Assembly (NCBI GenBank): GCA_015060835.1
Contig: SUXT01000017.1
Location: 1 to 35,887, forward strand
Length of the DNA stretch: 35,887 nucleotides
Direction: 5' to 3'
Origin: Bacteroidales bacterium
GTDB lineage: Bacteria; Bacteroidota; Bacteroidia; Bacteroidales; Bacteroidaceae
The position numbers were made by a program, and so were the translations under genes. The notes below the pieces were generated by a model. It saw only the letters and a program-made list of their open reading frames with translations, did not search any database and was not told where the DNA came from. Position 1 is the stretch's first letter, and each line of letters opens with the position of its first letter. This document shows, piece by piece, positions 3,443 through 35,326 of the stretch.

Positions 3443-5482
3443 GTGAAAAATACTACTAAAATCATCAGCGCACTGACAATTGCGCTTACACTACTGATGA
3501 ACCTCGCATCATGTAGCGAAGAGATGGACAAGTCGAACCGTTACACATTTACCGGTGAGACAATAGCTGACTTCATCCTCAACCGCGAGGAGCGATTCAG
3601 CAAAATGATAACAATCCTGAAGCAGGCAGACATGATGGGACTCCTATCAACCTACGGAACCTACACATTCTTCCTGCCCGGCGACTCTGCGATAGACACC
3701 TATCTGCGCGAACAGTTCGAAGCATGGGACACCACAAAGAACGACCCCAATCCCGCATGGACAGGCATCACATCGCCCTACCTCGAAGATCTCTCCGACT
3801 CAATGGCCATTGTAATCGCAAGGACACACATTGTCCCCTATGGCTACGAAATGGCACAGATGAGTGAAGGAGTAATAGACACACGCAACTACAACGACCG
3901 CTATCTGAGCGTCAGTTTTGTAACCGTCGACGAGAAATTCCGCATAATGATAAACAACCAGGCAGGAATAATCGAAGGCGACAACCTTGTAGAGAACGGT
4001 GTGGTACACATTGTGGACGAAGCCGTTGCTCCCTCATCAAACACCATCCCCAAGCTGCTTGATGACCAGCCCTACTTCTCGCTGATGTCGGCAGCCGTAC
4101 AAAAGACCGGCTTCAACACCAAGTTGCAGGAATACTTCTGCAAGCTCAATGGCGAAGAATATAAACTGGGCGCAGAGCCTGCCAACTGTTTCCAATGCGG
4201 TAAAGGAATGGCACGCTACCCACATAGCTATTATGCAAAATTCACAGGCTTCATAGAGACTGACGACGTTTTTGCCGCTGAAGGTATACACACAGTGGAA
4301 GAACTTCAGGCGTTTGCAGAAAAATATTACGGCACAGAGGACCGCGACAACCCCGAAAGCCCCAACAATGCCCTCTACAAATTCGTTGCCTACCACTTCC
4401 TCGAAAGAGAGCTCAACTACAACCTCATGGTGCAATACAACCTCGTACACGACAGCTACAAGAGCGAAAGTTCGGGAGGTATGGTTGCCAATGTCGACCG
4501 CGTGGACTACTTCGAGACAATGCTCGGCACAATGATCAAGGTGTGCAAACCCCTAAGCTGCGAAGACCCCTATCTGGCACAGAACATATTCCTCAACTTC
4601 TCACACAAGGAGGCGAAGCAGTACGATATGAAAAAACACATCAACGTGCGCATCATAGACCTCACATCGTTCACCTCAATGGATGAGAAATATGCCCACT
4701 TCTCGGCAAACGCGCTCAACGGCATCATACACCCCATTGACAAGATTCTTATATATAACGAGGATGAGATGAAAGGCAATGTACTCAACGAGCGTATGCG
4801 CTTCGATGTTGCATCACTGCTTCCCGAACTTACCAATAACGGTGTGCGCTATGGACGCTGGCAGCAGACAGGCGGCAAATGTACACACGGCGACTACAAC
4901 ATCCCTAACGGATACTGCAAGAACATTAAGATAAACGAACCTACAACCGAATGGCACTACTTCTGTCCCTACTCTTGGGGATGCAACTATCTTGGCGATG
5001 AGATTATCGTAGTTGGACAGTACGACTTTGAGTACCGTCTGCCGCCAGTACCTGCAGGTACATACGAACTCCGCATGGGATACACCTCTACAAGCATACG
5101 CGCCATCACACAGTTCTATGTAGACGGTAAAGTAACGGGAATCCCCGTCGACCTCAGAATCTACTTCAACGACGAGCGCATAGGCTGGATAAAGGACAGC
5201 GAAACTGAAGACAACGGAGTGGAGAACGACAAAGTAATGAGGAACCACGGCTATATGAAGGCTCCTGCATCGTACTACCGTCAGTCGGGCAACAAAGGCC
5301 TTGCACGCGACCAGGAGGGCGCCGGACGCATCATCATCACACAGAAATATTTCGACAACGGAGACCATTGGTTGCGCATGAAGAAGGTCGACGAGCCTCT
5401 CGACCGCGAATTCAACCACGACTACTTCGAACTCGTTCCCAAAGGCATAATATCGAGCCACATTCCCGAAGACAGACTCTAA
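3443..5482 (+). CDS. Fasciclin (FAS1) domain lipoprotein, probably surface-exposed
   Basis: The 679-residue protein starts at GTG 3443. The frame extends upstream to a TTG at 3392, but that TTG is the -33 element of the promoter, and only the 3443 start gives a clean lipoprotein signal ending in L-A-S-C (lipid-modified Cys24). The residues after the Cys (SEE) resemble the Bacteroidota lipoprotein export signal, so surface display is likely. Residues about 35-200 form a FAS1 domain: TIADFILNREERFSKMITIL, then YTFFLPGDSAI, with VVHIVDEAVAP near its end. A second, more divergent FAS1-like stretch runs through about residue 450 (NALNGIIHPIDKIL). The last 200 residues look like a beta-sandwich binding module (PVPAGTYELRMGYTSTSI). 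Such proteins often sit beside SusC/SusD pairs; none is present here. Its ligand is unknown. It is followed by a strong hairpin. Confidence 0.82.
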   Translation: MKNTTKIISALTIALTLLMNLASCSEEMDKSNRYTFTGETIADFILNREERFSKMITILKQADMMGLLSTYGTYTFFLPGDSAIDTYLREQFEAWDTTKNDPNPAWTGITSPYLEDLSDSMAIVIARTHIVPYGYEMAQMSEGVIDTRNYNDRYLSVSFVTVDEKFRIMINNQAGIIEGDNLVENGVVHIVDEAVAPSSNTIPKLLDDQPYFSLMSAAVQKTGFNTKLQEYFCKLNGEEYKLGAEPANCFQCGKGMARYPHSYYAKFTGFIETDDVFAAEGIHTVEELQAFAEKYYGTEDRDNPESPNNALYKFVAYHFLERELNYNLMVQYNLVHDSYKSESSGGMVANVDRVDYFETMLGTMIKVCKPLSCEDPYLAQNIFLNFSHKEAKQYDMKKHINVRIIDLTSFTSMDEKYAHFSANALNGIIHPIDKILIYNEDEMKGNVLNERMRFDVASLLPELTNNGVRYGRWQQTGGKCTHGDYNIPNGYCKNIKINEPTTEWHYFCPYSWGCNYLGDEIIVVGQYDFEYRLPPVPAGTYELRMGYTSTSIRAITQFYVDGKVTGIPVDLRIYFNDERIGWIKDSETEDNGVENDKVMRNHGYMKAPASYYRQSGNKGLARDQEGAGRIIITQKYFDNGDHWLRMKKVDEPLDREFNHDYFELVPKGIISSHIPEDRL

Positions 5483-5496
5483 CGGATTATATTATC

Positions 5497-5543
5497 AGAC
5501 ATCGGGCGCTGCGTATGATAAGCATACGCAGCGCCCGATGTCT
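5497..5543 (+). terminator. Hairpin terminator after FAS1 lipoprotein gene
   Basis: A perfect 21-bp inverted repeat (5497-5517 and 5523-5543) with a 5-nt loop begins 14 bases after the stop codon. The T-tract after it is weak, so it may work mainly by its very stable GC-rich stem. Confidence 0.75.
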
Positions 5544-5579
5544 ATGTAGTACAGAACTTTTTATGCAATAGTTTAGAAT

Positions 5580-6290
5580 TTATTGGTGTCCGGTAAAATT
5601 TCATTCTGCTTATGTTTTGAACTCCTCCGTCTTCAAAAACAAGGTAAACAACTCTCCCTCTTGGATAAGCTAATCTTTGGACACATCTTTTAGCTTTTAT
5701 GTTTTTCGCTAATCTCTTTATAAACATACTAAAAACACTGTCCCTCTTGAAGAGGGGCAACGCGGAATGGAGCGTTGCTTGCGACGACGAAAGCTTTAGC
5801 TTTCCAAAGGAGTGCCGAACGCAAGTGAGGTCTTACTTTTTTCAAGAAAAAAGTTCGGAGGGAGTTCTAAAATCTATCGTAGAGCAAAAAAGCATGCGAT
5901 GAGAAGAGAACTCCTCCGTCTTCAAAAAACTTCGTTTCTCGAAGCCACCTCCTCTTCAAGAGGAGGAATATATTATAAATGCTTTTTGAAAATAGTAACA
6001 AAGTTCAGAGGGGGTTCTTTACCCATCCTACTGCAATAGCCCCTTCTAAGCGAGGAAAACCCCTCCGTCTTCAAAAAACTTCGTTTTTCAATAGACCTCG
6101 CAAGCTCGGCACTCCTTAGGAAAGCTAAAGCTTTCGTCGTCGCAAAGCTCGTGCCAGCGAGTACAATGCGAGCTTGCTTGCAATTGTAAACGAGCGCAGC
6201 CGAGCTTCGCATAAAGCAAACATTGCTTATTACGCAATGTCCCCTTTAAGGGCAGGAGCTTTATTCAATAAGCTATTTTGCTGGTATTTA
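5580..6290. repeat. Mosaic intergenic repeat cluster A
   Basis: This non-coding stretch between two convergent genes starts with an 18-nt end motif (TTATTGGTGTCCGGTAAA, 5580-5597) that recurs at 30317-30334 in inverse orientation and, with changes, at 30036, 34980 and 35741. It contains recurrent modules: the CTCCTCCGTCTTCAAAAA box (5622-5639, also near 5910 and 6061), the palindrome centred near 5748, and the GACGACGAAAGC...GTGAGG module (5782-5830). It also holds a pyrimidine-rich palindrome near 5955 and an inverted copy of the last module at about 6090-6146. From 5669 to about 6002 it is an inverted copy of 19735-20188. Short open frames crossing it are artefacts of the repeats. Confidence 0.85.
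6147..6215. repeat. 68/69-bp hairpin insertion unit (copy 1) flanked by GCAAA
   Basis: This 69-bp sequence is bounded by GCAAA at 6142-6146 and again at 6216-6220. The matching place in cluster D (25010-25014) has a single GCAAA and no insert. The unit is nearly identical to the reverse complement of 19436-19503, and its centre folds as an ACAAT/ATTGT plus GCGAG/CTTGC stem. Confidence 0.75.
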
Positions 6291-6333
6291 GAAGCTGTTT
6301 GAATTTTATTAGAAAATAATTCTATATTTGCGT
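6291..6333 (+). repeat. Solo end of the 263-bp inverted-repeat element, with promoter-like sequence
   Basis: These 43 bases, starting GAAGCTGTTTGAATTTTATT, match the reverse complement of the right end of the element at 24640-24902 (bases 24860-24902). Only one end is present. It contains TTG at 6299-6301, 21 nt, then TATATTTG at 6323-6330, a Bacteroidota-type promoter match pointing right, towards the 3' end of secDF on the opposite strand. Confidence 0.75.
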
Positions 6334-6340
6334 ACAAACA

Positions 6341-6371
6341 GAGGACGGATGCACCCGGTGCATCCGTCCTC
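6341..6371 (-). terminator. Hairpin terminator after secDF
   Basis: A perfect 14-bp stem (6341-6354 and 6358-6371) with a 3-nt CCG loop lies 22 bases downstream of the secDF stop on the minus strand. It is followed on that strand by a short T-rich stretch. Confidence 0.75.
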
Positions 6372-6393
6372 CGATATTATTTATAACCTGATG

Positions 6394-9351
6394 TTATTTC
6401 TTTGAAGCCTTAGCCTCTTTCTTTGTCAATGTCATGTAAGCTACGGGAGCAGCTACGAAGATTGACGAAAGTGTACCGAATACAACACCGAGAATCATTG
6501 CAAATGAGAAGCTGCGTATGCTGTCACCACCGAGGATGAAGATACAGAGCAACACAATCAAAGTACTGATAGAGGTGTTGATTGTACGAGAAAGAGTTGT
6601 GTTGATTGAATCGTTGAAGAGTGAGAACTTATCACGCTTGGGATACAATCCGATGAACTCGCGGATACGGTCGAATACAACCACCTTGTCGTTGATAGAG
6701 TAACCGATAGCTGTGAGGACAGCACCGATAAATGTCTGGTCAATCTCAAGAGACATGGGGAGGATTCCGTAGAACAACGAATAGCAACCGATAATCATGA
6801 GAACGTCGATAGCCAACGCTGTGATAGAACCGATGCTGAATGCCACATTGCGGAAACGTACCAAGATGTAAAGGAAGATTGCTACAAGAGCAAAGATTAC
6901 CGACCAGATAGCACCCTTGGTAATATCCTCAGCGATGCTGGGACCTACCTTCTGAGAACTGATGATAGAACCACCTGTGCGGTTGTCGCGGTCGATGAAT
7001 GTAGCAAGAGTAAGATCCTTGCTCAAAAGACCACCATCCATGAATGCATTGTAGATGAATGCCTCAATTTCGGCATCAACATTTACATCATCCTCATTTA
7101 TGCGGTAGTTGGTAGTTACACGGATAGTCTTCTTGTCTGTACCGAGAGCAATAGCCTGAACATTGTCCTCAGTAATCTTGGTCTTGAGAAGAGCTCTTAC
7201 AGTCTCAGGCTCTACCTCCTTCTCGAACTGAACAACGAAGTTGCGTCCACCTGTAAAGTCGATGCTCTGGCTGAGACCGCGAACAGCGAACGATACAATC
7301 ATTATAGCTGCAAGTACACCGAAAACAGTGAATGACTTTTTGCGTGCACCCATAAAGTTGTATGAGGTGTTGAGCATGAGGTTCTTCGACCACTTTGTTA
7401 CGAATGTAAGGTTCAGCAACTTGCCCTTCTCCATGAAGTGCTCGTAGAATACACGTGTTACAAACACAGCTGTGAAGAATGAACAGAAGATACCGATGAT
7501 AAGTGTTGTAGCAAAGCCTCTGATGGGACCTGTACCGAAGTAGAAGAGGATAACACCAGTGATGATAGATGTGAAGTTAGAGTCGAAGATTGCAGAGAAT
7601 GCATTCTTGTAACCATCGGCGAGAGCAGCGCGTACCTGCTTGCCACCACGCATCTCCTCTTTAGTACGCTCGTAGATAAGCACGTTGGCGTCAACAGCCA
7701 TACCCAAAGAGAGCACAAGACCTGCGATACCCGAAAGTGTAAGTGCAGCCTGGAATGATGCAAGCACACCGAGAGTGAAGAAGAGGTTGATAAGGAGTGC
7801 GCCGTTAGCGATAGCACCGGGGATGAGACCGTAGATAGCGCACATATATATCATAAGGAGGATGAATGCCACAATGAATGACATCATACCCTGATTGATA
7901 GACTCCTGACCGAGTGAGGGACCAACGATGTCCTCCTGAACGATGCGTGCGGGAGCGGGCATCTTACCCGAACGAAGCACGTTTGCCAAGTCCTTTGTCT
8001 GCTCGATGGTGAAGTTACCTGTAATCTCTGAGCGACCGCCTGTAATCTCGCTGTTCACGTTGGGTGCGCTGTAAACGCAACCGTCAAGAACGATGGCGAT
8101 GGCGCGACCGATGTTGCTCTTTGTAAGGTGAGCCCAACGGCGTGAACCGTCTGTGTTCATAGACATTGTTACGCAGGGACGGCCATACTGGTCGTATGTA
8201 TCGGCAGCCGATACAACTACGTCGCCCTCAAGGGGTGCACGACCGTTGCGCTGTGTACTCTTGATTGCATAAAGCTCGTAGAAGAGATTTGTGGTCTCAG
8301 CATCAACAGCTCTTACACCCCAATAGAGACGGAGGTCGCGGGGAAGAATCTTCTTCACCTCGGGGTTTGCAAGCATTGTGTTGATAGCAGCTGTATCCTT
8401 GTAGTGAGCATAACCTACTACGCAACCGTTGTTGTTGAACTGAAGAACAGATGCAAGGGGATGAGCCTTTGCGATGTCCTCTGCAGCGGCAGCCTCAGCC
8501 TTATTCTCGCCATCGAGAGCTGCGGCAACATCCTCTGTCGAAGCCTCTTTAGCCTCCTCAGCTACAGCCTCTTTTGCTTCCTCCTTGGCAGGAGCAGCAA
8601 TGGCAGCGAGCTTTGCATCAGCATTCTGCAATGCGGGAAGCACCTCAGAAGCGTTGTATGTCTCCCAGAACTCAAGGTTTGCAGAACCCTGCAACAGTTT
8701 ACGAACGCGCTCAGGCTCCTTAACACCGGGAAGCTCAATCATGATGCGACCCATAGCGCCCTCCAGAGTCTGGATATTGGGCTGTACCACACCGAAGCGG
8801 TCGATACGTGTACGGAGCACGTTGAATGAGTTGTCGATGGCAGCCTGAACCTCCTCGCGGAGCACCTTCTCAACCTCGCTGTCAGTAGAACGGGTGTTAA
8901 CCTTGTCCTTCAACTGCTGAGTTGCAAAAAGAGTGGCGAGTGAAGACTCGGGAGCCAATCTCTTGTATTCATTGATGAAAAGGGTGATAAAATCGGACTG
9001 GCTTGTCAATGACTGCTTCTTTGCGTTTGCAATAGCCTCATTGAAAGCTGCATCCTCTTTGTGATCAGCCAATACTTTTACTACATCGGGTACAGAAACC
9101 TCCATGATGACGTTCATACCGCCCTTCAAGTCGAGGCCAAGACCGATTTCCATGTCACGGCTCTGCTTCAATGTGTAAACTCCAAGCCAAACTTTCTCGT
9201 TGAGCATGGAATCCATGTAGTGCTGTTCTCCCTGGGGGTCCTCAGCCGCTTTACCGGCATGATAACTCGTTACAAAAGAGAACGAAAGATAGAACAAGCA
9301 CACCAATGTAAGCAGGAGCGCAAATACCTTTACAAATCCTTTGTTTTGCAT
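6394..9351 (-). CDS. secDF: Protein translocase SecD-SecF fusion
   Basis: SecDF uses the proton-motive force to pull preproteins through SecYEG to the periplasm. At 985 residues this is the single-chain form usual in Bacteroidota. The SecD half covers residues 1 to about 640 and includes GLGLDLKGGMNVIMEV near residue 70, TRIDRFGVVQPNIQ, the domain ending in IVQEDIVGPSLG, and the TM4 stretch SLGMAVDANVLIYERTKEE. The SecF half starts near residue 658 with its own SIDFTGGRNFVVQF and ends with TAIGYSINDKVVVFDRIRE and NTSISTLIVL. An Ala/Glu/Lys-rich, probably disordered insert lies in the periplasmic P1 region at about residues 245-300. The start is the ATG giving MQNKGFVKVFAL, which leads straight into TM1. 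The gene stands alone, with its own promoter-like box and terminator. Confidence 0.97.
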   Translation of the reverse strand: MQNKGFVKVFALLLTLVCLFYLSFSFVTSYHAGKAAEDPQGEQHYMDSMLNEKVWLGVYTLKQSRDMEIGLGLDLKGGMNVIMEVSVPDVVKVLADHKEDAAFNEAIANAKKQSLTSQSDFITLFINEYKRLAPESSLATLFATQQLKDKVNTRSTDSEVEKVLREEVQAAIDNSFNVLRTRIDRFGVVQPNIQTLEGAMGRIMIELPGVKEPERVRKLLQGSANLEFWETYNASEVLPALQNADAKLAAIAAPAKEEAKEAVAEEAKEASTEDVAAALDGENKAEAAAAEDIAKAHPLASVLQFNNNGCVVGYAHYKDTAAINTMLANPEVKKILPRDLRLYWGVRAVDAETTNLFYELYAIKSTQRNGRAPLEGDVVVSAADTYDQYGRPCVTMSMNTDGSRRWAHLTKSNIGRAIAIVLDGCVYSAPNVNSEITGGRSEITGNFTIEQTKDLANVLRSGKMPAPARIVQEDIVGPSLGQESINQGMMSFIVAFILLMIYMCAIYGLIPGAIANGALLINLFFTLGVLASFQAALTLSGIAGLVLSLGMAVDANVLIYERTKEEMRGGKQVRAALADGYKNAFSAIFDSNFTSIITGVILFYFGTGPIRGFATTLIIGIFCSFFTAVFVTRVFYEHFMEKGKLLNLTFVTKWSKNLMLNTSYNFMGARKKSFTVFGVLAAIMIVSFAVRGLSQSIDFTGGRNFVVQFEKEVEPETVRALLKTKITEDNVQAIALGTDKKTIRVTTNYRINEDDVNVDAEIEAFIYNAFMDGGLLSKDLTLATFIDRDNRTGGSIISSQKVGPSIAEDITKGAIWSVIFALVAIFLYILVRFRNVAFSIGSITALAIDVLMIIGCYSLFYGILPMSLEIDQTFIGAVLTAIGYSINDKVVVFDRIREFIGLYPKRDKFSLFNDSINTTLSRTINTSISTLIVLLCIFILGGDSIRSFSFAMILGVVFGTLSSIFVAAPVAYMTLTKKEAKASKK

Positions 9352-18430: not shown

Positions 18431-19354
18431 ATGCAAACTGAAGACACAAAGAGCATCTGTTTCGAAGATTTCAAAAAGCACCCGCTTTTTATACTATACA
18501 TGGACAACGACATTGCCTTTCTGAACAACCTGACACAAATAATAGGGGACAGCAAAAAGGCAATCAGGCTCGATTGTTGCATGATAATTTTCAACGAAGG
18601 CAACGAAAGCGTCCACTGCAATATAAACGGAGAGGAATACAGCATCAAGAAGAATTGTTGCGCCATTCTGCCCATAGGGACAACCATAGCCTCATATAGA
18701 ACACGCAACAACAATGCTGTAAATTTTACCGTTGTTTCAAAGAGATTCATCAGCGAAATTATCTGTATGAACAAGGAGACACTCAACGTCATTCACTATC
18801 TCTACGACAATCCCGTGCATTCAATCGCACAGAAAGCCTCACGCAAACTTTATCTTTACAAAGAGTTGCTGATGACGCTCATCAACGAGGAGCCTCACGC
18901 CTACAGCAAACAGACGCGCCGTTTCCACTTTGCAGGGCTCTTCTGCGAAATGTTGGCACAACTGAGTCATCTTGTCCCCGAGGATAAGAGAATAGAGAAT
19001 AGGAACAACAGGTCGACAACTATAGTACACCACTTTATTAATGCCGTAAATGCCGACGATGGTTCGCACCGCTCGGTTTCCTACTTCGCCGAGAAACTAT
19101 GCTATAGTGCGAAACATCTTAGTTACAGTGTGAAGCAGGTTACGGGAAAGACTCCTTCGCAGATTATAAATGCTCATGCAGTCAGCCGCATTAAATACAA
19201 CCTCAAAAACACAAACATGAGCATGAAGAGGATGGCCGACTATTTCAACTTCCCCAATCCCTCGTTCTTCGGCAAATTCTTCAAGACACATACCGGAATC
19301 TCGCCCATGCAGTTCAGAGAGATGGAGGAGAAGGAACAGGGAGGTATTCTGTAA
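18431..19354 (+). CDS. AraC-family transcriptional regulator
   Basis: The 307-residue protein ends in an AraC-type double helix-turn-helix (about residues 205-300): SVSYFAEKLCYSAKHLSYSV is the first HTH, TGKTPSQIINAHAVSRIKY the linker, and MKRMADYFNFPNPSFFGKFF the second HTH, closing with the typical HTGISPMQFR. The N-terminal 170 residues form a cupin-like sensor region (CMIIFNEGNESVHCNINGEEYSIKKN...). It is divergent from the C1 peptidase gene across a 392-bp region, so it may control that gene or itself; this is only positional inference. The effector is unknown. There is no clean TAnnTTTG in its immediate upstream region. Confidence 0.92.
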   Translation: MQTEDTKSICFEDFKKHPLFILYMDNDIAFLNNLTQIIGDSKKAIRLDCCMIIFNEGNESVHCNINGEEYSIKKNCCAILPIGTTIASYRTRNNNAVNFTVVSKRFISEIICMNKETLNVIHYLYDNPVHSIAQKASRKLYLYKELLMTLINEEPHAYSKQTRRFHFAGLFCEMLAQLSHLVPEDKRIENRNNRSTTIVHHFINAVNADDGSHRSVSYFAEKLCYSAKHLSYSVKQVTGKTPSQIINAHAVSRIKYNLKNTNMSMKRMADYFNFPNPSFFGKFFKTHTGISPMQFREMEEKEQGGIL

Positions 19355-19435
19355 TATAAATCCGGTAATTTAGAACAACTGCAAAATACTCTCCCTCTTG
19401 GATAAGAGGGACATTACGTAATAAGCAATGTTTGC

Positions 19436-19503
19436 TTATGCGAAGCTCGGCTGCGCTCGTTTACAATTGCAAGCAAGCTTGCATTGTACTCGCTGGCACG
19501 AGT
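19436..19503. repeat. 68-bp hairpin insertion unit (copy 2) flanked by TTTGC
   Basis: The insert is bounded by TTTGC at 19431-19435 and 19504-19508. The paired copy at 20263-20290 has one TTTGC (20280-20284) and no insert. The centre folds as a 10-bp stem (19463-19467 and 19469-19473 with 19478-19487, one bulged T, 4-nt loop). Confidence 0.8.
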
Positions 19504-19534
19504 TTTGCGACGACGGGAGCTTTAGCTCCCCAAA

Positions 19535-19602
19535 ACTATAGCAAGCGAGTGAATGGAAGTTTACTTACATTTCCAACGAGCGCAGCATAGTTTCGATAAT
19601 AT
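19535..19602. repeat. 68-bp hairpin insertion unit (copy 3) flanked by CAAA
   Basis: The insert is bounded by CAAA at 19531-19534 and 19603-19606; the paired copy has one CAAA at 20307-20310. The ends ACTATAG... and ...CATAGTTTCGATAATAT align with the reverse complement of copy 2, sharing GCGAGT and CGAGCGCAGC blocks, while the central hairpin is different in sequence. Confidence 0.8.
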
Positions 19603-19762
19603 CAAAGGAGTGCCGAACGTAAAGTGAGGCTTAGAACGGGGGAGGGAGTTCGAACAAACACACAAGCAAAAAGTTTCAAACTCCTCGCGTTGTATGGTTT
19701 ATTGCAACACGATAAATCAAGCCTACGAACTATTTTGTTACTATTTTCAAAAAGCATTTATA

Positions 19763-19951
19763 GGGAGGTTCTATAAATTAGTTCGAGCTGATTTTTGAAT
19801 TTATATCGAGTAGATTGTCTTTTTTAACGAAGGCGCAACCTTCGTGTTGCAACTGAGTGAAAATAGACAAGATGCCGATATAAAACAAAAAGCGGCCGAA
19901 ATAGAACTGCCTTTGTAGAGATTAATTTAATAGTAATTTATAGAACCTCCC
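19763..19951. mobile_element. 189-bp non-autonomous inverted-repeat element (MITE-like) with TATA target duplication
   Basis: Perfect 18-bp terminal inverted repeats (19763-19780 and 19934-19951, outer bases GGGAGGTTCTATAAATTA) are flanked by TATA on both sides (19759-19762 and 19952-19955). The inverted copy of the same repeat at 5960-6003 has a single TATA (5974-5977) and no insert, which is a direct empty site. Inside is a small hairpin (19828-19844) and no open frame of note. The short flank duplication points to a TA-targeting transposase family acting in trans (inference); no such transposase gene is in the window. Confidence 0.85.
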
Positions 19952-20561
19952 TATAATATATTCCTCCTCTTGAAGAGGAGGTGGCTTCGAAAAACAAAGT
20001 TTTTTGAAGACGGAGGAGTTCTCTTCTCATCGCATGCTTTTTTGCTCTACGAAAGATTTTAGAACTCCCTCCGAACTTTTTTCTTGAAAAAAGTTCTCGT
20101 CCCTCTTCAAGAGGGACAGTGTTTTTAGTATGTTTTTAAAAAATATTAGCGAAAGATATAAAAGCTAAAGAGGTGTACAAAGATTAGCTTGGATAAGAGG
20201 AGGAGTTAATGGAAACTATTAAAAAACAAGAATATAACTCTCCCTCTTGGATAAGAGGGACATTGCGTAATAAGCAATGTTTGCGACGACGGGAGCTTTA
20301 GCTCCCCAAAGGAGTGCCGAACGTAAAGTGAGGCTTAGAAAGGGGGAGGGAGTTCGAATGAAAACAAAAGCAAAAGATTTCAAACTCCTCCGGCCTAACG
20401 GCCACCTCCTCTTATCCAAGAGGAGGAGTTAATGGAAATTCAACATGTTCCAATCAGTGCACTCAAATTTGCATCAATAAAGGAGTAGGAGCTTATACAA
20501 GCTCAAATATCTAACTTTAAAAGGATTAAATACGTTTACCAGAGAGCAACATTAACCAAAT

Positions 20562-20625
20562 ACAGCGTACTAAATAGAAAAGGAGAGACTCGAATGAGCC
20601 TCTCCTTTTCTATTTAGTACGCTGT
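20562..20625 (-). terminator. Long hairpin terminator after the 1195-residue protein gene
   Basis: A perfect 26-bp inverted repeat (20562-20587 and 20600-20625) with a 12-nt loop starts 4 bases after the stop codon on the minus strand. The T-tract is weak. Confidence 0.8.
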
Positions 20626-20629
20626 TATA

Positions 20630-23600
20630 TTATTCAACAACAACCTTTTTGCTTTCAACAACACCGTTAGCGTAAACTGTCTTAACGATATTTACACCCT
20701 TAACAGGAGCAGCAATTGCAACACCGTCAACTGTGTAGTATGTTGTAGAAACTACATCGTCGCCCTCAACGTTGATATCACCGATTGATGTACTAGATGA
20801 GATGAGACGGAGGTGCCACAATGAGTTTGTATCGCCACGTTTCCAGTAAACGATGTGTCCTGCGTTGCCGCCGCCACCACCGTGATCCTGAGCGTGGAAG
20901 CACAAGTTGCCGCCTTCTGATGCATCATACTCATCACCACCGGGTACCCAGATGTCGAACGCACCCTCCTTGTTGAAGATAACCATGTGTGCCTTAGGTG
21001 TATCCTGGAGGAAGAGGTGGAGACCATACCAGCTTGCGTTATTAGATTCTTCGGGATCGGGATAGCCTACATATTTGCCGAACTTCTTGCTCTTAACGTA
21101 GTAAGCATCATCTACCTGATCGGGAGTGATAAGGCTGTCTGCCAACCATGCAGCAACATCTGCATCGTCTGCTGAAGCTTTTTCAAGCTCAATGAGATAC
21201 ATAGGATCAATGTCAGAGAAGTCTTCGGGTGTGTTTCTCCAACCGAGCTCGTACTCGCCACAGAACTCACCACAAGTGTGGGGATCCATGAAGTAGATAG
21301 CCTTCTTGGTCTTCTGCTGTTCCATAAATGCTGAGTTGAAAGCCTCGAATACGTATGTACCCTCAACTACGGGATTAACCTCTGCATTCTCAACAGCTCC
21401 AATAGCGTCAGAAAGTTTTGTTACACAAACTGCTGCTTTTGCTTCGTCAGCTGTCTCAACTGCCAACTGAGCCTCAGCAAGAACTGCGGGGAATTCACCC
21501 AATGTTGAATAGCGACCGGGGTCGTTGCTTACAACGAAGCCGAGCTTCTCGGCAGCCTTTGTAAGAGCTGTCAACCAGTAGAGGTTGGGGTTGTCCATTG
21601 ACATGTGATAGATGAACCACTCACCCTCACCGTCCTTGTCGTTCATGTCGAGTGAAGGAACGTTGAACCAACCGAGGCCACCACCCCAGTCCTGAGCGAT
21701 AACATAAGGACAATGCGTTACTTCGCCATCGATTTCACGCTCTGACTCTTCAACATACTCATACATTACGAATGAGTAGGGGAGGTTCTCGTTGTTGTTG
21801 GGCTCAATCTTAACCTTAGCTGCCTGAGATTTGAAGATTGTTGATGAACCTGCGTTCCAGTAGTCGGGAGCATTCAATCTGATAGATTGCCAGTATTTAC
21901 CGTCAGCAAGGCTCTGGATGTAGTATGTATTATCCTCATCACCTGTCTTGCGGATTGTGAATGCACAAGGAGACTGGAATGAACCTACATAGCGGTTGTT
22001 GCTTGTGTAGAAGCCACCCTCTGCACCTGTACCATTAACGGGGTCGCAGTTAAGCATACCGTAGATTGCGTAGATACCGTTGTCTGTAATCTCAGTAATA
22101 TCCTTAACCTGAGCACCGCGTTCAGCATTGTACTCATCGGGGAATTCAACTGACAAGGGATCTACAGTCTCGCCATAGTAACCGAATACGAAGTCTGTGG
22201 GAACATCGTCGTAACCGTTACCGCGACCATACTGTACATATTTGAAACCGGTGATGGGCTCGGGAAGTGTGATGTCGAGGTAAACATACTCGGTACCTTC
22301 GTAACCTGTGTCGTTGTTAGAATCCCAAGCTGAGTGGAAGTGGTAGCTGTTGTTTGTGTTGCCGTCTACAAGACCGGGGAGACCGCCTGAATTACCGTCG
22401 CTTGATTTAAGAGAGTTTGTCTCGAAGCAATCCTCTGTCAACTCGATCTTCTCGCCTGTGATGCTGTAAAGCTCGAACTCGTTGATACATACAAAAGGAT
22501 AACCGTTGAAGTTACGTCCTGAGTGGTTCTTGAATACTGTGAAACGGAGTTCCTCAACCTCCTCTGTGAGGTAGATTGTGGGAGATTCCCATCTCCAAAC
22601 GCTGTTGCTCTTCTCACCGGGAAGACCATCTTCCTCCTGACCGATGCGGAAGGGGAGAGACTTCACGTTAGTGATCTTAGAAGCCCAGAAGTTTGTTATG
22701 ATAGCTTTGATGTCGGCAATAGCTGCATCGATGTCAGCAAGGCCTCTGTAATTTTCAGCAGTGATATCGCCTCTGTCGATTGCAGACTGCAATGCTACGT
22801 CAGCATCCTCGGGATATGAGTTGTTGATCCAGTCGGGACCTGATGATGTAAGGATTGAACCATCGTTGATGGCATCCATAATCTTTGTACAAGAGTCAAC
22901 CCATGCGTAGATGTTCATAGCTGCATAGTCAGCGATTTTTGCATTGAGGCTTGTTGCAGTTGTGATAACATCAGCAGCAGAGATATTCTCACCTGCGAGA
23001 ATAGCTTTTGCAGCCTCAACTGCCTCTACGAGTACATCGTACTGATCATTAACATATTCCTCCATTGCGCCGTAAGCTGCGATACGTGCCTCAGCCTCGT
23101 CAACAAGATCCTGGAGTTGGTAAGCTACAGTGCTACCGTCAATAGTTGCTTTGTATACTGTGAAGTTTGTCTCTGCGGGACGTGCCTCTCTCCATGATGC
23201 TATAGCTGAGTCAGTGTTCACAATGCTGATCATGCGAACGTTACCGTCCTGACCGAGAACACAAGAGTCGTGGTGTGTTGTAAGAAGGAAGTCACCCTCT
23301 ACAACGCTGTTGGTCTTGAATGTGATAGCCTCTGCATTGTACACGTTGTTTGTCCACTCTACGAAAGTTGAGTTTGTACCTGTCTTTCTGATGTAGTGGT
23401 CGTGGTTGAGGTAGCGAACTTTGTATGTATCCTCCTCGCCCTCAACAGGGATAAGATAGAACACACCGAATGCAGAGGGCTGACCTGTTGCAAGACAGGG
23501 AGCCTCGAAGAAACCGCCACCGATATTTGTACGCTCACGGTCGGGATCTTCCCAGTCGGGAGAGTGACCTTCGAGAACAAAGAGAGCACCAGCCTCTTTG

Positions 23601-24639: not shown

Positions 24640-24902
24640 GAAGCTGTTTGAATTTTATTTTGGAATTATTTGAGAGATATTTTGAGTAGATTTTCTTTCG
24701 CATTTTGCAGGGAATAGCGGGCTATTTCCAAAAAATAAGAAAGAAAAGATGCCAAAGTTGCGATTAAACGAGCGCAATGTGAACTTGTTCACAAATTGCT
24801 AAGCGAGTGAAAGCAACTTCAATAACATTAAAATAGACTCAAATAAGCCGAAATGAACAGCGCAAATATAGAATTATTTTCTAATAAAATTCAAACAGCT
24901 TC
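24640..24902. mobile_element. 263-bp non-autonomous inverted-repeat element (MITE-like) flanked by TTAA
   Basis: The 20-bp ends (GAAGCTGTTTGAATTTTATT and its reverse complement) lie at 24640-24659 and 24883-24902 and are perfect inverted repeats; TTAA flanks both sides (24636-24639, 24903-24906). Internal hairpins include TGTGAAC/GTTCACA (24779-24794) and a GGAATAGC/GCTATTTCC palindrome (24711-24729). A GAGTAGATT.TCTTT stretch and an AGATGCC block are shared with the 189-bp element. No coding frame. The right end carries, on the minus strand, TTG (24892-24894), 21 nt, TATATTTG (24863-24870), a promoter match reading into the element and towards 24217. The same end alone recurs at 6291-6333. 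Confidence 0.82.
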
Positions 24903-24908
24903 TTAATA

Positions 24909-25195
24909 TAACGCCAGTTCGATATAAGCAACGCGATGGTTGGAACTCCCTCCCCCTACTAAGCCTCACAAGCTCGGCACTCCTTTGGAAAGCTAAAGCT
25001 TTCGTCGTCGCAAACATTGCTTATTACGCAATGTCCTTCTTCAAGAGGGAGAATTTATAACTTTTTTAAAAAACATTTTGAAGAAATTCCTCCTCTTGAA
25101 GAGGAGGTGGATTCAAAAAACGCGTTTTTTTTGAAGACGGAGGAGTTCTAAATACCAGCCGAATATTCTATTTCCCTTATATCGAACTCACGTTA
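24909..25195. repeat. Repeat unit D with its own inverted ends
   Basis: The ends 24909-24928 and 25176-25195 are inverted repeats matching at 18 of 20 positions (core AGTTCGATATAAG). The interior is built from the common modules: ACTCCCTCCCCCTACTAAGC, GCTCGGCACTCCTTTGGAAAGC (24973-24994), GCAAACATTGCTTATTACGC (25010-25029), and a CCTCCTCTTGAAGAGGAGG palindrome (25089-25107). Both hairpin-insertion sites are empty here (24984-24987 and 25010-25014). Confidence 0.78.
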
Positions 25196-29299: not shown

Positions 29300-29944
29300 A
29301 TGAAGAAGATAGCATTGTTGGCATTTATGGCCATGATGTTTGTCGGCTCGGCAAACGCACAGTCATTCCTTTCAGGATTGTTTAACAAAATCTCAGGCTC
29401 AGGCAGCGCCGACGGCGTGCAGAGCACAGTAACAAATGTCCTCGGTTCGCTTTTGGGCGAGAGTATGACTTTGTCAAAATCGACAATAAAGGGTACATGG
29501 ACATACAATGGCACCTCATGCGTGCTTGAGAGCGACGATGCCCTTTCTAAAATCGGAGGCAGTGTTGCTACTGGCAAAGTTGAGGAAAAGATGAACGGTT
29601 ACCTCAAAAAGGTAGGTGTCAAGGAGGGTACATGCTCTTTCACATTCAGCGAGAATGACAGCTGTGTATTCCGTGTAGGCAGCAGAGAAATCAATGGTAC
29701 ATACGTGCTCGACGGTGAGAACAAGACCATACAGTTCAGTTTCCTCTATGGCCGTTTCACATCAACAGCTCACGTTGCATACGACATTAATTCACTCAAC
29801 ATTGTCTTCAATGCCGACAAGATGCTGAACCTTGTTCAGAAGGTAACTCCTGCCGTGGCCAAATATAATGCAACCCTCAGCACTCTTGCTACAATGCTTG
29901 AGAACTACAAAGGTATGATGCTCGGAATGAAACTGAAGAAATAG
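29300..29944 (+). CDS. DUF4923-type exported protein
   Basis: A signal peptide (MKKIALLAFMAMMFVGSANA) followed by a mature region of about 194 residues. It has a short helical start (QSFLSGLFNKISGSG), then a beta-rich domain opening with KGTWTYNGTSCVLESDDAL and containing GTCSFTFSENDSCVF and GTYVLDGENKTIQFSF, a pattern of lipocalin-like DUF4923 proteins of Bacteroidales. The C-terminal helices close the fold. Function unknown; periplasmic or outer-membrane-associated location is expected. A strong terminator follows. Confidence 0.85.
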   Translation: MKKIALLAFMAMMFVGSANAQSFLSGLFNKISGSGSADGVQSTVTNVLGSLLGESMTLSKSTIKGTWTYNGTSCVLESDDALSKIGGSVATGKVEEKMNGYLKKVGVKEGTCSFTFSENDSCVFRVGSREINGTYVLDGENKTIQFSFLYGRFTSTAHVAYDINSLNIVFNADKMLNLVQKVTPAVAKYNATLSTLATMLENYKGMMLGMKLKK

Positions 29945-29960
29945 ATTCCGGTATTTTATA

Positions 29961-30013
29961 ACATATAGCAATCGGGCTGAATCTTTCATGGATTCAGCCC
30001 GATTGCTATATGT
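29961..30013 (+). terminator. Terminator after the DUF4923 gene
   Basis: A perfect 23-bp stem (29961-29983 and 29991-30013) with a 7-nt loop, 16 bases after the stop codon and followed by TTTA. Confidence 0.87.
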
Positions 30014-30035
30014 TTTATAGGTGTGGTTGATTATA

Positions 30036-30334
30036 TTAGTTTCCGGTAAATTTTTATTCTGCTTATGTTTTGAACTCCTCCGTCTTCAAAAACAAGGCAA
30101 ACAACTCTCCCTCTTGAAGAGGGAGTCCCCGCAGGGGGAGGGAGTTCCCGAACACGCAAGCAGAAAGTTTCAAACTCCTCCGTCTTCAACTTGCGTTGAA
30201 TCCACCTCCTCTTATCCAAGAGGAGGAGTTTAAACCATTGCACTCAAATTTGTATCAAAAAATGAATAGGGGGCTTATACAAGCTTAAATATCGAATTTT
30301 AAAAGAATTAAATACGTTTACCGGACACCAATAA
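30036..30334. repeat. Compact repeat unit B with inverted ends
   Basis: This is the smallest complete-looking unit: its left end (30036-30050) and right end (30317-30334, TTTACCGGACACCAATAA) are inverted versions of the same end motif, giving a body of about 300 bp between convergent genes. The inside has two CTCCTCCGTCTTCAA boxes and two palindromes (30108-30126, and 30206-30228 with CCTCCTCTTATCCAAGAGG). The right-end module from about 30235 is shared with cluster C. Confidence 0.8.
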
Positions 30335-30351
30335 TTTGATAATCATTAATA

Positions 30352-31278
30352 TTATTTGTTTACCCCATTGCTCTTCCCATAATCCTTTCTCAGCGATACA
30401 GTCCGCTCGGTGGGGAAATCAGCAGGGAGTGACTGTTTCACTTTTCCCGTTGCGCTCCATTCGGCGCCACGCAGCAGCAGTGTCTGGAATCCGGCGCATT
30501 GCATGGCGGGGTTGTCCTCAAGAGACGGCCCGCAGTGGCCCAACATTATGTGGAAGATGCGTGCTTTCCCGTAATCTACGGTAAAGACTAAAGGTTCTTC
30601 GCGTCCTGATCCGCCTGTGTTTCTATCGGCCTTGCCTGAGTAGAGAAGCTCCTTGATGTTGGCAGGGCCGCGCATACGGTCGTACATTTCGTCCTGTGCG
30701 TGCATCCAGTTGTCGGGAAGATCTTTTGTGATAGGGTGGTTGGCATTGCGGCAGTGCATGGGGTACTCTCTCTGCATTCCGTGTGAACCGCCGTGTCCGG
30801 GGGAGTGATCGAGTACGGGCTTGCCATCTTGCAGATAGTAGTAGGGGCCCGATTTTTCGTTGCGCCCCTCCCAGCCTCCGAGGGCTGTTATTTTGTTGAA
30901 TTCCTCCCATCCTGCAAAGGCATTGTCGGCTGCATGATAGACGATTACTCCGCCGCCATCCTGAACATATTTCAGGAATGAACTGTCTGTCGTTTCACTC
31001 CAACGGTCGCCATTGTAGTCGAGTATAACTACATCGTATTTGTCGAATCGGGGATTGAAACTGCTCATGTTGCCACCTGCCGGAGGGGTAAGTGCAATGT
31101 CGGTTGCGAACATTCCCGAGTTGTCGAGAATCTCTTTTATGGCCAGATGGCTGACCTTCCAGTTGTGGTTGTTCTGTCCTGAGACTACAAGTGCCTTTAA
31201 AGGTTTGTGGCTGCAACCAGAGAGTATGATGGTGGTTGCAATTGCCAATAGGTGTATCAGTTTGCTGATGCTTTTCAT
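30352..31278 (-). CDS. ThuA-domain lipoprotein
   Basis: A lipoprotein signal ends in L-S-G-C (Cys22) and is followed by SHKP, without an acidic surface-export signal. Residues about 26-270 form a ThuA domain, a glutamine-amidotransferase-like fold: KALVVSGQNNHNWKVS, YDVVILDYNGDRW, GGGVIVYHAADNAF, HPITKDLPDNWMHAQDE and PLVFTVDYGKARIFHIMLGH. ThuA proteins are linked to trehalose or other sugar metabolism; in Bacteroidota they are commonly predicted glycosyl-hydrolase-like and untested. It is the last of three minus-strand genes (29-base gap after the phosphoesterase). Confidence 0.9.
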   Translation of the reverse strand: MKSISKLIHLLAIATTIILSGCSHKPLKALVVSGQNNHNWKVSHLAIKEILDNSGMFATDIALTPPAGGNMSSFNPRFDKYDVVILDYNGDRWSETTDSSFLKYVQDGGGVIVYHAADNAFAGWEEFNKITALGGWEGRNEKSGPYYYLQDGKPVLDHSPGHGGSHGMQREYPMHCRNANHPITKDLPDNWMHAQDEMYDRMRGPANIKELLYSGKADRNTGGSGREEPLVFTVDYGKARIFHIMLGHCGPSLEDNPAMQCAGFQTLLLRGAEWSATGKVKQSLPADFPTERTVSLRKDYGKSNGVNK

Positions 31279-35094: not shown

Positions 35095-35162
35095 ATAATA
35101 TCGAAACTATGCTGCGCTCGTTGTAAATGTAAGTAAACTTCCATTCACTCGCTTGCTTTAGC
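35095..35162. repeat. 68-bp hairpin insertion unit (copy 4) flanked by TTTG
   Basis: Bounded by TTTG at 35091-35094 and 35163-35166 and again exactly 68 bp long. It is the reverse complement of copy 3 with substitutions that weaken the central stem. The equivalent site in repeat D (24984-24987) is empty. Confidence 0.78.
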
Positions 35163-35326
35163 TTTGGAAAGCTAAAGCTTTGAATGTTTCTAAATTCGGC
35201 TGCGCTTAAGCAAGCATTGCTCATTACGCAATGTCCTCTTATCCAATAGTGGTTTATGTAAACTGTTGAAAAACAAGGAAAACGACTCTCCCTCTTGGAT
35301 AAGAGGGAGTACCCGAATGGGGGCTA

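Follow-up and report, generated by a model that had tools for sequence, protein, structure and literature searches.

What places a hairpin-forming unit of 68 bp twice within one compound repeat, between the same few bases each time, and why do paralogues of that repeat on the same contig lack it? The window in which this question arises, the whole analysed stretch of 35,887 nucleotides, is contig C127 of a draft genome (G000; 2.64 Mb in 158 contigs, 86% complete), in which many contigs terminate within these repeats. A first-pass annotation had read the inserts as a single unit that, read in one orientation, starts next to CAAA, and had taken their distribution as what independent insertion or precise loss would give. 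On re-measurement, the lengths and flanks of the inserts at 19436-19503, 19535-19602, 35095-35162 and 6147-6215 are as it described, and empty paralogues do exist at 20.3 and 25.0 kb. The window contains the following features, in which A, B and C denote three types of insert.

5771-5824, plus strand: module without A or B unit, with the variant A flank GCAAGCAACGC
6147-6215, plus strand: A unit of 69 bp, GCAAA on both sides; B site of its module empty; model R1 82.6 bits (copy in model)
19436-19503, minus strand: A unit of 68 bp in a filled A site, TTTGC on both sides; model R1 81.8 bits at 19440-19509 (copy in model)
19509-19534, plus strand: GACGACGGGAGCTTTAGCTCCCCAAA, the core hairpin on which the host module is built, flanked by the A and B sites; 79 copies in G000
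19535-19602, plus strand: B unit of 68 bp in a filled B site, CAAA on both sides; model R1 81.5 bits at 19529-19596 (copy in model)
20261-20320, plus strand: paralogous module of the 20.3 kb cluster, A and B sites both empty
24751-24822, plus strand: possible distant relative of the unit, with two CGAG blocks and paired outer arms; model R1 21 bits, E = 0.0013 (85 kb searched)
24964-25032, minus strand: module at 25.0 kb, both sites empty
35095-35162, minus strand: B unit of 68 bp with an altered 5' outer-stem arm, TTTG on both sides; model R1 76.9 bits (copy in model)
35182-35205, minus strand: C unit reduced to its 3' arm, adjoining a core hairpin, as judged against intact C units

Model R1 was built from a set of sequences that includes all four filled copies of the window. 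The altered B copy at 35.1 kb and the C remnant lie side by side, and matches like the one at 24751-24822 also occur at three loci (L222, L234, L235) of the closest relative, G296. Rfam covariance models at gathering score gave no match in the window, and we found nothing on the 68-bp unit in the open-access literature searched. The repeat clusters at 5482-6394, 19354-20630 and 29944-30352 occupy gaps between convergent ORFs. Among the other palindromic repeats of these clusters, 5835-5977 and 19952-20094 form a 143-nt inverted pair that is 98% complementary.

The GCGAGT-type blocks that the annotation had seen in the inserts recur throughout the genome: the strict pattern GCGAGTN{8,38}ACGAGCGCAGC has 42 matches in G000, against none for a reversed control pattern. 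They comprise 24 A and 18 B copies. GCAAA stands on both sides of every A copy, and the lengths are 68, 69 or 70 bp (2, 18 and 4 copies, respectively). Fifteen of the 18 B copies measure 68 bp between CAAA; of the other three, one measures 62 bp, one is missing its left half and one runs into the end of its contig. Inserts of random length without the CAAA repeat, which would have spoken against the insertion reading, are thus not what the 42 copies present. Twenty A copies are preceded by GTCGTCGCAAA, three by the end of a neighbouring A unit, a triple array at contig C22 accounting for two of these, and one starts where its contig does; 17 B copies are preceded by C[CT]AAA, and the remaining one is truncated. 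The inserts are not of one type: A and B are site-bound subfamilies, each tied to one side of the core hairpin and pointing opposite ways, and they are joined by a third insert, C. The C insert lies within the core hairpin itself, at four of five loci after GACGAAA and with a CAAA end, whereas the 3' end differs at L304. At five further places, one in G000 (L325) and four in G296 (L378, L386, L394, L401), a C head stands inside an A outer stem at the A site, whereas the C head at its own site carries another stem. An A head outside any module occurs in G296 (L226 584-654, contig C32), with a different and poorly paired outer stem.

What do these inserts have in common beyond their blocks? A CAAA-type sequence precedes the unit and recurs as its end, which makes the flanking direct repeats, of about 5 to 15 bp, its boundaries. 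Starting from the AAA of the left flank, the layout reads S1 - TGC..CGAG - apical hairpin - CGAG.GCAGC - S1' - TTC - small hairpin - AAA. We examined it in two alignments, A1 with 28 sequences and A2 with 25 others from several families. In A1 the covariation score of the outer stem is 0.325, against 0.111 after shuffling, and none of 500 shuffles scores as high, although one of five measures, further pair types, is not above the shuffles (366/500). The corresponding scores in A2 are 0.300 and 0.120, with 0 of 500 shuffles as high on all five measures. Across species, S1' is nearly always complementary to the local S1, and 93% (A1) and 90% (A2) of the outer-helix cells are paired, the flanking AAA included. 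Two positions of this flank pair with the TT of the 3' TTC, the first of the two in all rows (28/28 and 25/25) and the other in 26/28 and 24/25, where the pair is A-T in 24 and 23 rows, respectively.

Tandem G.A mismatches are known for a stability that depends on their context. In the unit, CGAG is found in both arms, in a register that places two G.A mismatches between C-G pairs, and GA/GA is retained in 53 of 53 rows (28/28 in A1, 25/25 in A2). The adjoining pair is G-C throughout A1 (28/28), while in A2 it is A-T (22 rows), G-C (2) or unpaired (1). The apical hairpins vary in sequence between species and loci but keep their structure; they are stabler than base-shuffled copies of themselves, with a mean z of -3.8 and a z below -2 in 47 of 53 cases. 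Judged by its sequence, the single-stranded unit can form a long hairpin interrupted by a tandem G.A mismatch, and its TTCGC segment would be able to pair with the GCAAA at either side.

The host of these inserts is a compound repeat built around the core hairpin, which the A and B sites flank. Core hairpins number 79 in G000, 35 in G296, 7 in G312, 3 in G301 and 2 in G305; none was found in G317 and G320. The variants of the core stem change in pairs (GGGAGC/GCTCCC, GGGAAC/GTTCCC, GAAAGC/GCTTTC). Set against the description of CGTC-tagged REPs, for which the part of the source consulted names Bacteroidetes among other phyla and associates no transposase (PMC3733652), the core hairpin shows GACG/CGTC at its foot as a tag-like element, a four-base loop (TTTA) and a CCA tail, but its stem of about 6-7 bp is shorter than the 8-9 bp given there together with a loop of 4-5 bases. 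This likeness concerns the host hairpin; the inserts carry no CGTC tag.

How are filled and empty sites distributed over the modules? Among the 75 modules of G000 that are readable on both sides, 8 carry both A and B, 8 carry A only, 4 carry B only and 55 carry neither, the last class including odd A flanks (e.g., L351) and the A class including the C-headed L325. A and B co-occur more often than by chance (odds ratio 13.75, Fisher p = 2.4e-4), and their spread is therefore not wholly independent: copying or conversion of whole modules also contributes. The 34 modules read in G296 comprise 4 with both inserts, 4 with A only, 5 with B only, 19 with neither and 2 cut by contig ends. Comparing the same sites in this closest relative, as the annotation had proposed, uncovered empty and filled forms of one locus: L365 of G000 and L233 of G296 share their flanks and their module, but G296 has extra C and A inserts (L233 ends 32 bp past the insert). 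Two further same-locus pairs, L342/L378 and L314/L230, differ in their inserts and in other features too. The entire cluster at 19.4-20.3 kb is represented in G296 by a short hairpin.

The unit is not confined to this module system. Elsewhere it stands alone or in tandem arrays with a period near 76-99 bp. Tandem arrays on record comprise six units in G308, three in contig C48 of G000 and, for type A, the three at C22. Other genomes were searched by exact patterns or by shallow model scoring. In a family-level sample the strict pattern matches 19 of 301 genomes, 10 of them among the 21 of its own genus, 8 in a second genus and 1 in a third. In three of those genomes the matches (L048 in G233, L050 in G279, L055 in G256) have no outer stem by eye, and we rejected them as units and left them out of the model. 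A looser pattern matches 6 of 393 genomes of an order-level sample, G000 included, where the reversed control matched once; a related pattern matches 3 of 198 genomes, and a class-wide model search, in which 17 candidates were scored per genome, recovers at least 3 of 295, again including G000. Among the matches listed for a pattern scan of GTDB contigs, most appear to be chance matches; of its loci, L142 was used and L073, L135 and L141 were inspected. Near-identical unit arrays at L477, L490 and L496 (in G308, G307 and G116; six, at least two and at least two units) are perhaps one locus, and a possible variable-number marker.

Upstream of mutS2, the number of units differs between close relatives: two in G240, one in G200 and none in G101, G303 and G276. 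In the filled form of G200 the 15-bp TTGCACTATCTTTGC is doubled; the empty forms carry a single TTGCACTATCTTCGC in its place, one base different. Exact boundaries in nearly all copies, filled and empty forms of the same locus and the series of 0, 1 and 2 units at mutS2 support precise gain or loss as the annotation had proposed it, whereas the A/B association points to module copying or conversion in addition to independent events. In G101, G303 and G276 the empty site already contains GTGCAA, and this part is missing in more distant relatives, so that the empty form may have been left behind by the loss of a unit rather than be an ancestral target.

A pattern also matches at 12 places in 11 stretches of viral contigs, nine of them distinct; in eight of these nine, 6 or more of the 7 outer-stem pairs form, which L524 does not reach. 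The tail proteins encoded by L518 identify this contig as a phage; two different units (4483-4527 and 8587-8634) lie in gaps that separate its virion genes, one in each orientation. A search of phage records gave one weak match, and a search of plasmid records gave no unit match.

Taken together, the 68-bp inserts are probably non-autonomous mobile DNA hairpins of a REP- or PATE-like kind, amplified and lost by way of short direct repeats. This reading starts from what is observed: the conserved structure, the boundaries, presence and absence at the same locus, the tandem arrays and the occurrence in other genera and in phages. We envision a scenario whereby A, B and C each entered the compound repeat in the lineage of G000, the original insertion being the work of a trans-acting enzyme of the single-strand (HUH) type. 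Copies of the module, some bearing inserts and others not, would then have multiplied and undergone conversion among themselves, and recombination or slippage between the flanking repeats would lead to the loss of units or to tandem growth. Against this reading stand the failure to find a transposase in the genomes examined, the A/B association, the possible loss scar at mutS2, the change of core type at L342/L378 and the 18 of 39 free arrays with no -7-like CAAANNTA at the right end. In G000, moreover, A and B are confined to module sites, A tandems and truncated copies; for these two subtypes, free transposition is accordingly no more than putative. The unit adds a structurally defined family, with its outer stem, tandem G.A and apical hairpin, to the hairpin repeats of bacteria, shows one repeat inserted within another, its sites filled or empty at corresponding loci, and raises a testable question about how small hairpins are mobilised in genomes that yield no RAYT. 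Related units near promoters and between phage virion genes may alter expression and travel with phages.

Conceivably, A, B and C entered a single module once each and have been immobile since, their present pattern resulting from gene conversion and duplication among some 79 recombining modules. We regard this as a serious contender, if one that falls somewhat short of probable. It accommodates the fixed module places at which all readable A and B copies of G000 lie, with the exception of some within A tandems and a single truncated B, as well as the A/B association, and conversion among modules can explain much of the A/B distribution. L342 and L378 also differ in core type, as a replacement of the whole module would give, and 29 of the 42 G296 loci compared could not be matched uniquely to any of the G000 loci compared (flanks being short and both genomes drafts), so that modules seem to turn over. 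However, A is found on three core-stem types and in three left contexts, for which conversion would need repeated short tracts, and the number of free-standing units varies at mutS2 in other species.

A second alternative takes the filled state as ancestral and has the hairpin precisely deleted between its GCAAA repeats by replication slippage on the lagging strand. We regard it as possible but less likely. In its favour, the hairpin is flanked by short direct repeats, the empty mutS2 sites retain GATAGTGCAA as a possible solo-repeat scar, and arrays vary in unit number; slippage or recombination between the flanks can indeed explain both loss and tandem growth. Nevertheless, with 55 of 75 modules lacking a unit at both sites, loss would have to be very frequent, and slippage accounts for loss but not for arrival. 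The arrival of units at new places in other genera and in phages is explained by neither slippage nor conversion.

Might the units then still be moved by transposition of the IS200/IS605 or RAYT type, with CAAA serving as both cleavage sites? We consider this rather unlikely. In its favour are a hairpin near each end, the CAAA on both sides and a TTCGC that is complementary to both, and the direct repeat would simply be the equal left and right sites; a true target duplication of 4-15 bp fits equally well, however. The RAYT gene that the annotation had suggested seeking does not bear this out, for the 86% complete G000 contains no Y1_Tnp (PF01797) match, and no Y1 gene flanked by a unit appeared among the relatives examined. 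PF01797 has seven hits in 6 of 29 genomes; exact unit words place no unit beside the gene at any of the seven loci among the matches listed, and at the six loci scored with model R1 no unit is adjacent, the sole signal being weak (16.5 bits) and lying within another reading frame of L187, some 1 kb upstream of the gene. The RAYT-like gene at this locus (G200, L187 1180-2170) has a different, multi-hairpin repeat on both sides, perhaps an example of the atypical structures that the consulted part of one study reports around subclass 2.6 RAYT genes of Bacteroidetes (PMC6006769). On this evidence from the draft G000 and from the loci examined in other genomes, Y1_Tnp was rejected as the mobiliser. 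Neither A1 nor A2 has conserved columns for a GTAG or GTGG tag 5' of the hairpin, and the loci examined contain no autonomous relative with tnpA and the same ends. Nor does the guide layout agree: in the portion of the literature consulted, the guide of IS200 TnpA is described just 5' of the hairpin foot, whereas the possible guide of the unit lies at the 3' foot of the large hairpin.

Which known elements does the unit resemble? PATEs, which derive from IS200/IS605, are short, have hairpin ends and insert precisely beside a tetranucleotide-like site. The unit shares these traits as far as the accounts consulted go, but has no tnpA, no autonomous copy in the loci seen and a different guide layout. 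Like REPs, it is an intergenic, multi-copy hairpin of conserved structure, although mechanical ORF calls flag four unit loci as possibly within a reading frame. Many-copy hairpins, mosaics, tandems and compensatory changes recall the REPs and BIMEs described in the text consulted (PMC6006769); in contrast to those with RAYTs, the unit lacks a GTAG tag and G000 a detectable RAYT, the comparison with subclass 2.6 structures being by text only. By analogy, then, the unit would work like a REP- or PATE-type hairpin, its membership in the RAYT or IS200/IS605 systems being only a candidate assignment. BrickBuilt, a MITE of Porphyromonas gingivalis, is from the same phylum and likewise has tandem units in a short mobile element, but its repeats measure 23 bases and, in the part of the description consulted, its terminal inverted repeats are shared with IS elements (PMC4596501); the 68-bp unit has no such ends. 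A MITE mobilised by a DDE transposase does not fit, as the direct repeats range from 5 to 15 bp instead of having a fixed length and the inverted arms vary by site.

The weakest alternative, that the units are cis-acting RNA or promoter elements which carry a promoter or a regulatory hairpin near -7 boxes, is improbable, as both orientations occur within one phage operon, unit number differs among close relatives, 26 of the 42 G000 modules with a called right-hand gene adjoin the 3' end of that gene (mechanical ORF calls) and, by eye, the spacing of TTTG at -33 is not kept in all units. What speaks for it, besides the strong covariation, is the setting of the free-standing units. In 21 of 39 free arrays, CAAANNTA lies no more than 50 nt from the right end, compared with 3.6% of random windows in the same loci; the other 18 have no such -7-like sequence there. 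CAAANNTA is the complement of the TANNTTTG box, which we take to be the Bacteroidetes -7 box; TAnnTTTG is a known promoter box. Of the free arrays with a called left-hand gene, 7 of 24 lie 6-65 bp before its start, the gene reading away from the unit, again by mechanical calls. We also rejected a variant that makes every unit a portable promoter whose loop contains TTTG: by eye it fits some units and fails in G312 and in contig C48 of G000.

More speculative still, and in our estimation the least probable of the readings considered, is the idea that the mobile hairpin chooses or remakes its own site by base pairing, with a modular head and a stem that acts as a target guide or is re-templated at the site. 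It would build on the five loci where a C head stands in an A stem, as though the stem went with the site and the head could be exchanged, and on the near-constant complementarity of S1' to the local S1, flanking AAA included.

Finally, an arrangement in G296 involves two genes of the window. At L222 (contig C117), a stretch about 80% identical to the window gene at 3.5-5.5 kb (3517-5483) adjoins the counterpart of the gene at 20.6-24.2 kb. Compared with 3517-5483 and 20.5-24.8 kb of the window, this layout reflects either a rearrangement or a paralogue near the repeats.
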